Below the pieces are notes generated by a model. That model saw nothing but the letters and a program-made list of their open reading frames with translations. It searched no databases and was not told where the DNA came from. Of a DNA stretch of 64,000 nucleotides, positions 46,186 to 52,235 are shown one piece after another; the stretch's first letter is position 1; each line of letters begins with the position of its first letter. The position numbers and the translations under genes were made by a program. The stretch is from assembly GCF_014236855.1 (NCBI RefSeq), contig NZ_CP051261.1:62001-126000 (forward strand). The letters are read 5' to 3'. Source of the stretch: Xanthomonas sp. SI (GTDB taxonomy: Bacteria; Pseudomonadota; Gammaproteobacteria; Xanthomonadales; Xanthomonadaceae).

Positions 46186-46827
46186 CTACCAGCGCAGCAG
46201 GCGCGGGCCGAGGGCGGCGCCGAGCGCGGTCGGCAGCGCCATCCCCAGCACGTACCACAGCGCCCAGAACGGGACCGCCATCTCCGGGCAATGCAGGCAA
46301 TAGGCCGTGGTCGCCAGGGCGCCGCCGAGCAGTCCGCCGGCTGCGCCGGCCGCGCGCAGGCGGGTCGGCGCCAGTCCGCGCAAGGCCCAGAACACGCTGG
46401 CGAAGGTCGGAATCGACAGCAGCGCGATGTTGAACGGGCAACTGTGCCAACTCTGGCCCTGCAGCAACGGCAGGCGCAGTTCCGCCGGCGCCGCCCACAG
46501 CGCGGCGATGGCCGCGATCCACAACGTGACGACCGGGACGCCGATCGCGATGGCGGCGGCGCCGACCCGCCGCCCCGGCGTGGCCAGGCGCCAGGTCGCC
46601 AGGCCGGCACCGGCGGCCATGCAGGTGGCGAAGCCCAGCTTCGCCCAGAACGCCGGATGCGCAGCGGCGACCGTCAGGTCCGGGCGGAGACCGAAGACGG
46701 CTGCCGCCAACAGCAGCGCACCCAGCAGCCCGCATGGCAGCGCCAACGCGAATCGCCGAGCAGAAGCATGCCGGTCCACGCGCAAAGGTTCCTGCGCCAG
46801 CAGCGCAATCAATTCATTGGTCTTCAT
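46186..46827 (-). CDS. NrsF/DUF1109-type anti-sigma factor
   Basis: 213 aa with six membrane helices and the DUF1109 pattern: MKTNELIALLAQEPLRV at the cytoplasmic N-terminus and late paired cysteines (SCPFN, CLHCPEMAVPFW). In Caulobacter NrsF holds the sigma factor SigF and releases it under oxidizing or metal stress, with the cysteines as sensors. Its start overlaps the sigma gene stop by 4 bp, so the two are made together. The family call is strong and the sensing mechanism is by analogy. Confidence 0.85.
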   Translation of the reverse strand: MKTNELIALLAQEPLRVDRHASARRFALALPCGLLGALLLAAAVFGLRPDLTVAAAHPAFWAKLGFATCMAAGAGLATWRLATPGRRVGAAAIAIGVPVVTLWIAAIAALWAAPAELRLPLLQGQSWHSCPFNIALLSIPTFASVFWALRGLAPTRLRAAGAAGGLLGGALATTAYCLHCPEMAVPFWALWYVLGMALPTALGAALGPRLLRW

Positions 46828-47387
46828 GTCGTACTCCTGATCTTCAGCGCCAGCGCCTTGAGTCCGCGATGCACGCCGACCTTGACCGCGGATTCGGACA
46901 TGCCGGTCAGCCGGGCGGTCTCGCTGACCGACAGGCCCTGCAGCTTCACGTGCACGATCGGCAGGCGGTGCCGGTCCGGCAATTGCTGCAGCAGCCGGCC
47001 GATCTCATGGCGGGCGTGCGCCGGCGCGTCGTCGGCATGCGCGAACAGATCGTCCGCGGCGTCCAGCGGCAGTTGCAGCGGACGCTTGCGCGCGTGCGCC
47101 CGGTAGAAGTCCAGCAGCTTGTAGCGGGCGACCGCATACACCCACGCGGTCAGCGGTTCGCTGCGGCGATAGGTGTGGCGGCTGTTGTGGATGGCCAGCA
47201 GGGTCTCTTGCAAGATGTCCTCCACATCATCGGGCGCGTGGTTCAGGCGGCGGCGCAGGAAAGCGCGCAAGTGGGCGCTGAGTTCGTCCAGGAACGTGCG
47301 GTAGTCGCGCGCGTCGCCCTCCAGGCCGGCCACGAACAACAGGCGCAGACGCACTTCCACCGCCTGCAGCGCGTCCAGCCGGCTCAT
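46824..47387 (-). CDS. ECF sigma factor of the bufferin locus (SigF-like)
   Basis: 187 aa. Region 2 is LRAFLRRRLNHAPDDVEDILQETLLAIHNSRHTYRRSEPLTAWVYAVARYKLLDFYR, and region 4 is RLLQQLPDRHRLPIVHVKLQGLSVSETARLTGMSESAVKVGVHRGLKAL. It should direct RNA polymerase to the three GTAACC-N16-CGAA promoters nearby, one of which drives this operon itself. The ATG at 47387 gives a normal ECF length, though no Shine-Dalgarno is seen; an upstream frame overlaps it by ATGA and might couple translation. Confidence 0.88.
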   Translation of the reverse strand: MSRLDALQAVEVRLRLLFVAGLEGDARDYRTFLDELSAHLRAFLRRRLNHAPDDVEDILQETLLAIHNSRHTYRRSEPLTAWVYAVARYKLLDFYRAHARKRPLQLPLDAADDLFAHADDAPAHARHEIGRLLQQLPDRHRLPIVHVKLQGLSVSETARLTGMSESAVKVGVHRGLKALALKIRSTT

Positions 47388-47677
47388 CGCGCCACGCGGC
47401 CGGCGGCCTGGGACGGGACGCGGCGGGAACGGCGGATCGGCATGCAGCGTTCTCCAAGGCGGCCTGGCGCACGCCGGACAGGCAGGATACGACGGCATTG
47501 ACCTTGCCGCTGGAGTCGCACCGGGCATCTGCGCGCCGGTACCGCCGCCACGCTGGCCGCGCCTGGCGCCGCACCCGGCCGTGCCAGGCGTGCCAGGCAC
47601 GCGCCCACCGCCGCGACGCATGGCGCCGCGGGCGCAGGCCATGCGGCCACGGCCGCCACCGGTGTCTGGCTGTTCAC
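47384..47677 (-). CDS. Possible upstream ORF in the sigma-operon leader
   Basis: A 97-codon frame from GTG at 47677 ends at TGA overlapping the sigma ATG by ATGA. The product is Ala/Pro/Arg-rich with four cysteines. It fills the roughly 300-nt leader between the promoter and the sigma start. There is no homology that I recognise and no clear Shine-Dalgarno, so it may be chance coding. Confidence 0.2.
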   Translation of the reverse strand: MNSQTPVAAVAAWPAPAAPCVAAVGACLARLARPGAAPGAASVAAVPARRCPVRLQRQGQCRRILPVRRAPGRLGERCMPIRRSRRVPSQAAGRVAR

Positions 47678-47711
47678 TGTCGCTTCTTGTCTCTGGTCAT
47701 GACCGCGGTAG

Positions 47712-47737
47712 TTCGTCGCATGCGCGGTGGCGGTTAC
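47712..47737 (-). promoter_or_regulatory. SigF-type promoter of the sigma/anti-sigma operon
   Basis: On the minus strand GTAACC (47737-47732) is followed by 16 bp and CGAA (47715-47712). It is the mirror of the bufA1 promoter, the two -35 boxes being 42 bp apart, and implies autoregulation. Confidence 0.65.
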
Positions 47738-50272: not shown

Positions 50273-50317
50273 GTACCTGCTGCCAATTCGGCATCCGTCC
50301 ATCACCGAGGAACGTCC

Positions 50318-50593
50318 ATGATCGCTACCCGTACCGTCACCGGTTTCGCCGCCACCGCCGCCCTGCTTGCCGTCGCCGCGGCCAGCGTTCCGGCTACCGC
50401 CAGCGCCGCCGCCAAGGGCGATGCCAAGCTTGTCGCCTGCTATGGCATCAACAGCTGCAAGGGCCAGTCCGATTGCAAATCCGGCAGCCACGAGTGCAAG
50501 GGCCAGAACGCGTGCAAGGGCCAGGGCTTCAAGGATGTGACGGTGAAGCAGTGCAAGTCGGCCGGCGGCTCGCTGACCGCGCCCGCCGCCTGA
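50318..50593 (+). CDS. bufA2: BufA2-type bufferin precursor
   Basis: 91 aa with signal peptide (TVTGFAATAALLAVAAASVPATASA). The mature peptide has six cysteines in short CKG-type repeats: ACYGINSCKGQSDCKSG, HECKGQNACKGQGF and a final KQCKS. This is the second bufferin class and differs from the four-cysteine BufA1 at 47872, so the two peptides probably bind different metals or act at different levels. It has its own sigma-type promoter and its own modifying pair downstream. Confidence 0.87.
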   Translation: MIATRTVTGFAATAALLAVAAASVPATASAAAKGDAKLVACYGINSCKGQSDCKSGSHECKGQNACKGQGFKDVTVKQCKSAGGSLTAPAA

Positions 50594-50658
50594 GGCGACA
50601 CCTCTGTTCCGGCCGGCGCCGTGCGCCCCGGCCGGGACGACCAACGAGACCTTGCCAG

Positions 50659-51501
50659 ATGGACACGATCGCGCCTTTCCACGGCTTCGGATTGGGCCTG
50701 CGCCCGCCGCACTATCCGCTGTACCTCGAGGAGCCGCCCGCGCTGGATTTCGTCGAGGCGATCTCGGAAAACTTCATGGTTGCCGGCGGCCGGCCGCTGC
50801 ATGTGCTGGACCGGGTGCGCGAGCGCTACCCGGTGGCGCTGCACGGCGTGTCGATGTCGCTGGGCTCGGCCGATGGGCTCGATCGCGACTATCTGCTGCG
50901 GCTCAAACATCTCACGCGGCGCGTGCGCCCGCTGTGGGTTTCCGACCATCTGAGCTGGAGCGCGGTCGCAGGATTCAATTCGCACGATCTGCTGCCGCTG
51001 CCCTACGACGGCGAAGCGCTGGACGTCGTTTGCGCCAACATCGCCCACGCCCAGGACGTGCTGGAGCGGCCATTGCTGCTCGAGAATCCGTCCACCTATC
51101 TGGCCTTCGCAGGCGCCATGAGCGAAGCGGCGTTCCTGCGCGAGGTGTGCGCACGCACCGGCTGCTATCTGCTGCTCGACGTCAACAACGTCTACGTCAG
51201 CGCCGTCAACCATGGTGCCGATCCGCAGGCCTATCTGGACGCGCTGCCGTGGGACCGGATACGCCAGGTGCACCTGGCCGGGCATAGCCAGGGCCGCGAA
51301 CTGTTGATCGATACCCACGACCAACCCGTCTGCGATCCGGTGTGGGCGCTGTACGCGACGGTGTGCCGGCGTATCGGCGCGATGGCGACCATGATCGAGC
51401 GCGACGACCGGATCCCGCCGCTGTCCGAGTTGCTGGACGAGCTGCAGATCGCCCGGCGCATCGCCGCCAACGCGGCACGTGCGGCACGCGCGGCCGCATG
51501 A
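50659..51501 (+). CDS. bufB: BufB MNIO enzyme (DUF692), second copy
   Basis: 280 aa, the same length as the first copy but clearly diverged. The ligand motifs are retained: ALHGVSMSLG, WVSDHLSW, LLENPSTYL, LLLDVNNVYVSAVNHG, QVHLAGH, DTHDQPV, TMIERDDRIP. It should act on BufA2. It overlaps bufC by 4 bp. Confidence 0.9.
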   Translation: MDTIAPFHGFGLGLRPPHYPLYLEEPPALDFVEAISENFMVAGGRPLHVLDRVRERYPVALHGVSMSLGSADGLDRDYLLRLKHLTRRVRPLWVSDHLSWSAVAGFNSHDLLPLPYDGEALDVVCANIAHAQDVLERPLLLENPSTYLAFAGAMSEAAFLREVCARTGCYLLLDVNNVYVSAVNHGADPQAYLDALPWDRIRQVHLAGHSQGRELLIDTHDQPVCDPVWALYATVCRRIGAMATMIERDDRIPPLSELLDELQIARRIAANAARAARAAA

Positions 51502-52235
51502 GCCTGCTCGACCTGCAGCGCCGCTTCTCGGGTTGGCTGCGCGACCCCGCGGCCGATGCGGATGCCTGCCTGGATGCGCATCAGCGCCCGGGCCTGCGCG
51601 TGTATCGGCATGCCTACCGCGCGCAGCTCGGCGACGCGTTGCGCGATACCTACGCCACCACCCTGGCCTGGCTGGGCGATGCCGCGTTCGACGCGGCCGC
51701 GGCCGGCTACGTGGCGCGGCATCCTCCTTCTGCCTGGAACCTTGGCGCCTACGGCGACCGCTTCGGTGCCTACCTGCGCGTATGCCATCCCGAGCGTCCG
51801 GAGCTCGCCGACCTGGCCTGGCTCGACCTGGCCCTGCGCCGCGCCTTCGATGGGACGGATGCGGCGCCGGTGACGCTGGCGGCACTGGCCGGCGTTGACT
51901 GGGAGCAGGCGCGCCTGCGCTTCGTGCCGACCCTGCGCCGCCGCCGCATGCGCAGCAACGCCGCTGCGATCTGGCTGGCACTGTCGGAGAGGCGTGCGCC
52001 GCCCGCGGCGGTACGCCTGCCCGAGGCGGTGACGATCCGGGTCTGGCGCAAGGGCTTGTCGCCCTATTTCCAGAGCATGTCGCCGCTGGAGGCGCGCATG
52101 CTGCGCGATGGCCTGGCCGGGTTGCGCTTCGGTGCGTTGTGCCGACATGCGCCTGACGACGATCCGGCGCTGGTCGGGCGGGTGCTGGAACAGTGGTTGC
52201 GCGACGAAGTGCTGGAGGCGGTCGCGCCAGGGTGA
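51498..52235 (+). CDS. bufC: BufC partner protein (DUF2063), second copy
   Basis: 245 aa. The DUF2063 N-terminus LLDLQRRFSGWLRDP and GLRVYRHAYRAQLGDALRDTYATTLAWLG matches the first BufC, with an independent C-terminal part. It works with the second BufB on BufA2. No DoxX gene follows in this copy. A 9-bp hairpin ends the operon. Confidence 0.85.
   Translation: MSLLDLQRRFSGWLRDPAADADACLDAHQRPGLRVYRHAYRAQLGDALRDTYATTLAWLGDAAFDAAAAGYVARHPPSAWNLGAYGDRFGAYLRVCHPERPELADLAWLDLALRRAFDGTDAAPVTLAALAGVDWEQARLRFVPTLRRRRMRSNAAAIWLALSERRAPPAAVRLPEAVTIRVWRKGLSPYFQSMSPLEARMLRDGLAGLRFGALCRHAPDDDPALVGRVLEQWLRDEVLEAVAPG

Follow-up and report, generated by a model that had tools for sequence, protein, structure and literature searches.

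A sigma-F regulator and two bufferin modules form a presence/absence cassette in Xanthomonas with a predicted role in copper stress

The 64,000-nucleotide stretch of Xanthomonas sp. SI that was analyzed here (contig NZ_CP051261.1, positions 62,001–126,000; hereafter the window) contains, between positions 46186 and 52235, two bufferin modules next to the genes of an ECF sigma factor and its anti-sigma factor. As assigned with Pfam and NCBIfam profile scores, the sigF-nrsF pair lies on the minus strand and is divergent from bufA1, an MNIO gene, a DUF2063 gene and doxX, which are followed by bufA2 and a second pair of MNIO and DUF2063 genes (Table 1). BufA1 belongs to the DUF2282 family, has four cysteines and is encoded together with MNIO and DUF2063 genes, which identifies it as a Buf1 precursor, and BufA2, which matches NF050166, has six cysteines and is accompanied by the same two gene types, is a Buf2 precursor. 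The N-termini of the precursors are Sec-like, as judged by eye. Both MNIO proteins score far above the PF05114 and NF050167 cut-offs, and the sequence relatives of MNIO2 in the PDB include MbnB, a TglH-type DUF692 protein and 3bww. SigF has sigma70 regions 2 and 4, and its gene is directly adjoined by that of NrsF (DUF1109), which by profile scores places the pair in the ECF16 type. These assignments are in agreement with a preliminary description of the locus as two modules with four- and six-cysteine precursors, each with its own MNIO and DUF2063 partner. The SigF/NrsF pair named there is also present and adjoining, although the region given began at 46824 and so excluded nrsF, which was nonetheless mentioned; doxX, which belongs to the Buf1 module, was missing from that gene list.

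Three exact matches to the motif GTAACC-N16-CGAA are found in the window, one ahead of each of sigF-nrsF (on the minus strand), bufA1 and bufA2, as the preliminary description had noted. In 100 dinucleotide shuffles of the window, the mean number of exact matches was 0.01, and three or more were not reached in any of the 100. Only the exact form of the motif is informative, because tolerating two mismatches gives 44 matches in the window compared with 29.6 expected. The motif is real but not new, as its letters are identical to those of the sigma-F site of Caulobacter crescentus, in print since 2012 (PMC3511200). The sites at sigF and at its predicted targets also fit the consensus (T/C)GTAAC-N17-CGAA reported for ECF16 promoters (PMC8315932), a promoter type that RpoE7 of Sinorhizobium meliloti and BcrS of Brucella are described as sharing (PMC6180224, PMC8315932). 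The layout is shared by six distinct genomes, i.e. the window, G120/L069, G124, G131 and G132, and G018 from another genus of the family, and the box is exact at each of their 18 promoters. TGTAACC and CGAA are constant across the six genomes, and the spacers and flanks vary.

Within the genus, bufA2 is carried by 5 of 20 genomes, and both modules are present in all five carriers. All nine cassette proteins align in the four other carriers, in which BufA2 is 91–100% identical over the aligned stretch (51–91 residues); its reading frame contains no stop codon in any of the five. The right-hand neighbor of the region is an AIM24 gene (PF01987), and the left-hand neighbor is a patatin-like gene, named from a reading of its translation. 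Full-length AIM24 is present in 14 of the 15 non-carriers, the last of which has no full AIM24 match. In 12 of these 14 the patatin-like gene lies 112–337 bp from AIM24, compared with 6.1 kb in the window, and in the other two no match to it was found in the 1.5 kb flanking AIM24. Sigma factor, anti-sigma factor and both modules thus constitute a single 6.1-kb cassette, which genomes of the genus either carry or lack as a whole. In the AIM24 tree all carriers belong to a single starred set of ten rows, over which their distribution is patchy; three changes of the carrier label are required by the best tree, of which the starred branches force one, with 12 of 16 inner branches unstarred. The base composition of the cassette (68–72% GC per kb, compared with 70–73% in the adjacent 44–56 kb stretch) gives no foreign signal. 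To the left of the patatin-like gene, at 44570–44980 of the window, lies a repeated GC-rich stretch, and in 11 of the 12 genomes with an empty site a similar stretch is located between the patatin-like gene and AIM24, at the place that the cassette would occupy. In a sample of 119 genomes of the family, BufA2 was matched in 13 (11 above the cut-off) and NrsF in 20 (17 above the cut-off), and the two lie at most 10 kb apart in four genomes (G000, G018, G040 and G112). In the four other genomes of the same genus listed in this sample, NrsF was not matched.

Table 1. Genes, predicted promoter boxes and limits of the sigma-F/bufferin cassette (positions refer to the window)
Feature	Position	Strand	Basis
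presence/absence cassette, patatin-like gene to AIM24 gene	46148–52266		flanks 112–337 bp apart in 12/14 non-carriers
nrsF, anti-sigma factor	46186–46827	−	PF06532, 229.8 bits
sigF, ECF sigma factor, SigF/ECF16 type	46824–47387	−	Sigma70_r2 and r4_2; NF009188, 293 bits (cut-off 250)
sigF leader, ~320 nt, probably untranslated	47388–47711	−	indels among carriers not multiples of three
sigma-F box of sigF-nrsF (predicted autoregulation)	47712–47737	−	exact GTAACC-N16-CGAA; exact in 6/6 genomes
sigma-F box of bufA1	47780–47805	+	exact match; exact in 6/6 genomes
bufA1, four-Cys Buf1 precursor	47872–48159	+	DUF2282/PF10048, 87.3 bits; 4 Cys
bufB1 (MNIO1), MNIO bufferin maturase	48176–49018	+	PF05114, 323 bits; NF050167 BufB, 356.7 bits (cut-off 310)
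bufC1, DUF2063 partner protein	49015–49776	+	PF09836, 74.1 bits
doxX, final gene of Buf1 module	49773–50231	+	PF07681, 63.3 bits
internal sigma-F box, doxX/bufA2 gap	50247–50272	+	exact match; exact in 6/6 genomes
bufA2, six-Cys Buf2 precursor	50318–50593	+	NF050166, 99.6 bits (cut-off 60); 6 Cys; no Pfam match
bufB2 (MNIO2), MNIO bufferin maturase	50659–51501	+	PF05114, 361.6 bits; NF050167, 374.6 bits (cut-off 310)
bufC2, DUF2063 partner protein	51498–52235	+	PF09836, 68.8 bits

Two cysteines of NrsF, Cys130 and Cys180, are invariant in all 14 aligned NrsF sequences, including that of the window. In Caulobacter, sigma-F output is reported to be affected by NrsF and by two of its cysteines, C131 and C181 (PMC3511200). 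The C. crescentus sequence lies outside the alignment, and it is by position and conservation that Cys130 and Cys180 match these sensor cysteines as their likely counterparts. The leader of sigF is unusually long and apparently non-coding, with conserved blocks near its end, and it is possible that it is a regulatory RNA element. A coding leader, in the form of an open frame overlapping the start of sigF, was rejected because the indels among carriers in this segment are not multiples of three.

To compare the Buf2 module with its relatives, named genomes were scanned with MNIO2, and of the 224 loci confirmed, the 80 best were searched for the box in the 800 bp that precede the MNIO gene. A linked SigF is found in 15 of these 80 loci. 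An exact box occurs in 13 of the 15 and in 2 of the 65 without SigF (L072 and L090), and when one mismatch is allowed the proportions are 15/15 and 3/65. Fisher's test on the 80 related loci, which ignores kinship, gives 3e-11 for this association. The box matches 15 of the 80 windows searched, compared with a mean of 0.03 and a maximum of 2 for 200 letter-shuffled motifs, and on the minus strand an exact box is present in four of the 80, where it most likely belongs to divergent partners. At L072 (around 7902; Sphingobium), the exact box stands directly ahead of the MNIO gene; NrsF was matched at this locus, and BufA2 and SigF were not detected.

BufA1 is matched in 14 of the 15 SigF-linked loci, and a single MNIO is found in 13 of the 15, counted on the locus stretch only. 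The loci from Sphingomonadales and from Caulobacter metagenome-assembled genomes (L070, L071, L073–L075, L086, L091, L093–L096 and L100) resemble the Xanthomonas cassette in that SigF, BufA1, DoxX and BufA2 with MNIO are found together and a box lies near bufA2 (with one mismatch in L074 and L095). They differ from it in having one MNIO on the stretch for two precursors and a variable gene order, and, unlike in the Xanthomonas cassette, NrsF was not detected in L086, L091, L094, L095, L096 and L100. It is possible that the one-MNIO loci are natural cases in which one enzyme serves two precursor classes.

The two MNIO proteins of the window are 47% identical over 258 residues, and a deep starred branch separates them in a quick, midpoint-rooted tree with long-branch warnings. 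This tree comprised 98 rows, after partial sequences (L045–L048), repeats (L111 and L146), hits shorter than about 200 residues and identical sequences were dropped. A recent duplication of one module was rejected because of this low identity and the deep branch between the two enzymes. MNIO2 is placed in a starred set of 32 rows together with G018 and with alphaproteobacterial, Rhodanobacteraceae and Burkholderiales rows. Other MNIO2-type rows of the same family fall outside this set, which hints at transfer, although with this quick method the placement within the set is tentative.

We consider it probable (approximately 0.85) that the locus is a self-contained copper-stress cassette in which SigF/NrsF switches on both bufferin modules from three like promoters. 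The preliminary description had proposed one sigma factor for both modules, and this is corroborated by the identity of the motif with the Caulobacter sigma-F site, its fit to the ECF16 consensus, its exact conservation in six of six genomes and its occurrence together with a linked sigF. Promoter use, signal, chemistry and copper binding are predicted here from relatives. In Caulobacter, the bufferin operons CC3254-3257 and CC2907-2905 are reported to be SigF-dependent, with starts mapped by rapid amplification of 5' cDNA ends (5'RACE) (PMC3511200), and copper is reported to induce the SigF regulon, mutation of sigF making the cells sensitive to the metal (PMC8224329). The Buf1 peptide of Caulobacter is described as carrying thiooxazoles and binding copper in the periplasm (PMC12452194; see also PMC13097082), and in S. 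meliloti the ECF16 factor RpoE7 drives a DUF692/DUF2063 operon (PMC6180224).

By analogy, NrsF would keep the ECF16-type SigF inactive at the membrane until metal or thiol stress, sensed by the two conserved cysteines, releases it. Free SigF would then fire the three GTAACC-N16-CGAA promoters of sigF-nrsF, bufA1-bufB1-bufC1-doxX and bufA2-bufB2-bufC2, and its action on its own operon would provide positive feedback. Each MNIO/DUF2063 pair is predicted to convert cysteines of its own precursor to thiooxazoles, and the peptides, exported by Sec, would trap excess copper in the periplasm. A scan of the region for terminator-like sites found none in the gap that separates doxX from bufA2; its three hits, compared with 2.6 expected, all fall inside bufC1 and doxX. 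Transcription of the Buf2 unit therefore probably starts at two nested promoters, its own and that of Buf1. This arrangement would provide dose and not a second metal. Read-through, dosage and the pairing of each enzyme with its precursor are inferred only.

Several observations weigh against this interpretation. The score of NrsF, 140 bits, is lower than the NCBI equivalog cut-off of 300, though above the Pfam cut-off. The association between box and sigF is confounded by ancestry: two independent pairs of loci are available on starred branches (five on all branches), a sign test on independent pairs gives a median p of 1 with so few pairs that it is underpowered, and Fisher's p-value is therefore an overstatement. 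In S. meliloti, rpoE7 fusions are reported to be unresponsive to H2O2, Cd and chromate (PMC6180224), and for this reason the signal may vary from one species to another. Upstream of msrP no site matches the box even at two mismatches, although msrPQ belongs to the SigF regulon in Caulobacter. In the whole genome (5.25 Mb), five exact matches to the motif compare with eight for a reversed control pattern, and 147 matches with one mismatch compare with 180 for the control. The genome scan that the preliminary description had called for thus gave no excess of sites, but the only three at predicted targets are those of the cassette; the remaining two lie inside long open frames, of a glycosyltransferase and an AraC-type regulator as read from their translations. 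It is therefore the placement of the motif that is specific, and not its genome-wide frequency. From those densities, the chance of an exact match on one chosen strand of the 86-bp gap between doxX and bufA2 is approximately 4e-5 to 7e-5. The genome-wide counts would suit an explanation in which the boxes are chance matches in GC-rich DNA and the Buf2 module is under another regulator, but with three exact sites in 64 kb, each upstream of a predicted target, and with their conservation in all six genomes while the spacers vary, this is very improbable.

The graded or two-metal buffering suggested in the preliminary description, in which Buf1 and Buf2, under one sensor, differ in the metal that they bind or in the level of stress at which they act, found no support on the side of the metals and is unlikely overall. 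It would account for the different precursor classes, with four and six cysteines, for the old and divergent enzymes that each module possesses and for the presence of both modules in every carrier of the genus. However, preliminary data on Caulobacter are reported to show Buf2 as functionally similar to Buf1, and the two families are called isofunctional there (PMC12452194). The single MNIO on the stretch of 13 SigF-linked loci suggests that the pairing of Buf1 with Buf2 may not need two enzymes there, and the identical −35 and −10 letters at the three promoters give no sign of differing thresholds. We regard it as quite unlikely that the second module is a redundant passenger or relic without a distinct role, retained by linkage. 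The patchy occurrence in 5 of 20 genomes and the three label changes in the best AIM24 tree would be expected of such a passenger, although the starred branches force a single change; the exact state of all three boxes in every carrier, the alignment of all nine proteins in the other carriers, the high identity of BufA2 over its aligned stretch and the absence of stop codons from its frame speak against it.

A tentative extension of the sigma-F cassette model, which we hold to be possible and somewhat doubtful, is that sigma-F, Buf1 and Buf2 travel as a portable unit of which the two-MNIO and one-MNIO forms are alternative solutions. The enzyme of the one-MNIO form would modify both precursor classes, the Xanthomonas MNIO proteins would be precursor-specific, and the nested promoter would double Buf2 transcription. 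The contrast between the two forms offers a natural test of MNIO precursor specificity.

Motif, regulator and paired target operons were already known, and what is new is modest: the linked Xanthomonas cassette, the linkage of Buf2 to sigma-F and the one- versus two-enzyme contrast. The cassette extends the sigma-F/bufferin copper response to some members of Xanthomonas, a genus whose species encounter copper in agricultural sprays. No publication joining DUF692, a sigma factor, Xanthomonas and copper was found in the literature searched. The closest known system, the Caulobacter sigma-F/NrsF regulon (CC3252-3257, CC2907-2905 and CC2748; PMC3511200, PMC8224329), has a sigma/anti-sigma pair of the same kind, the same promoter letters and two bufferin operons, the first of which adjoins sigF and ends in doxX. 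Its second operon is described as lying elsewhere on the chromosome, whereas here both modules and the regulator are in one block. S. meliloti RpoE7/EcfR7 with SMb20530-20527 is similar in its ECF16 sigma factor, DUF692/DUF2063 operon and GTAAC...CGAA promoter, and differs in that one such operon, for which no inducer is named, is described in the part of PMC6180224 drawn on here. The Buf1 and Buf2 clusters of PMC12452194 share with the cassette the precursor, MNIO and DUF2063 genes of both families and the presence of doxX in the Buf1 unit. The relevant part of that paper states that sigma and NrsF genes are present in Buf1 clusters and absent from Buf2 clusters. This statement does not cover the loci analyzed here, because SigF is encoded on the same stretch in the window and in 15 of the 80 Buf2 loci; contrary to it, a Buf2 cluster can be linked to sigma-F. 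The mismatch may result from how clusters were cut or filtered.

Three further loci of the genome are related to these systems. At 3118114–3118581 of the genome (L187), an MsrP-like gene is followed by that of an MsrQ-like membrane protein, whose homologues are sigma-F targets in Caulobacter; of the two matches at the two-mismatch level on this stretch, neither is upstream of msrP, and a single one is at the msrP-msrQ junction. A third MNIO cluster of the oxazolin type (L184; 1987797–1988582 and flanks) encodes, as read from translations, a precursor with EGKCG repeats and a DUF2063-like partner. Upstream of this cluster no match to the box was found even at two mismatches, and three matches at this level occur elsewhere on the L184 stretch. 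A fourth, more distant MNIO-family protein (L186; 4766578–4767318) scores 136.7 bits, and its gene is preceded by a small CxxC-bearing frame.

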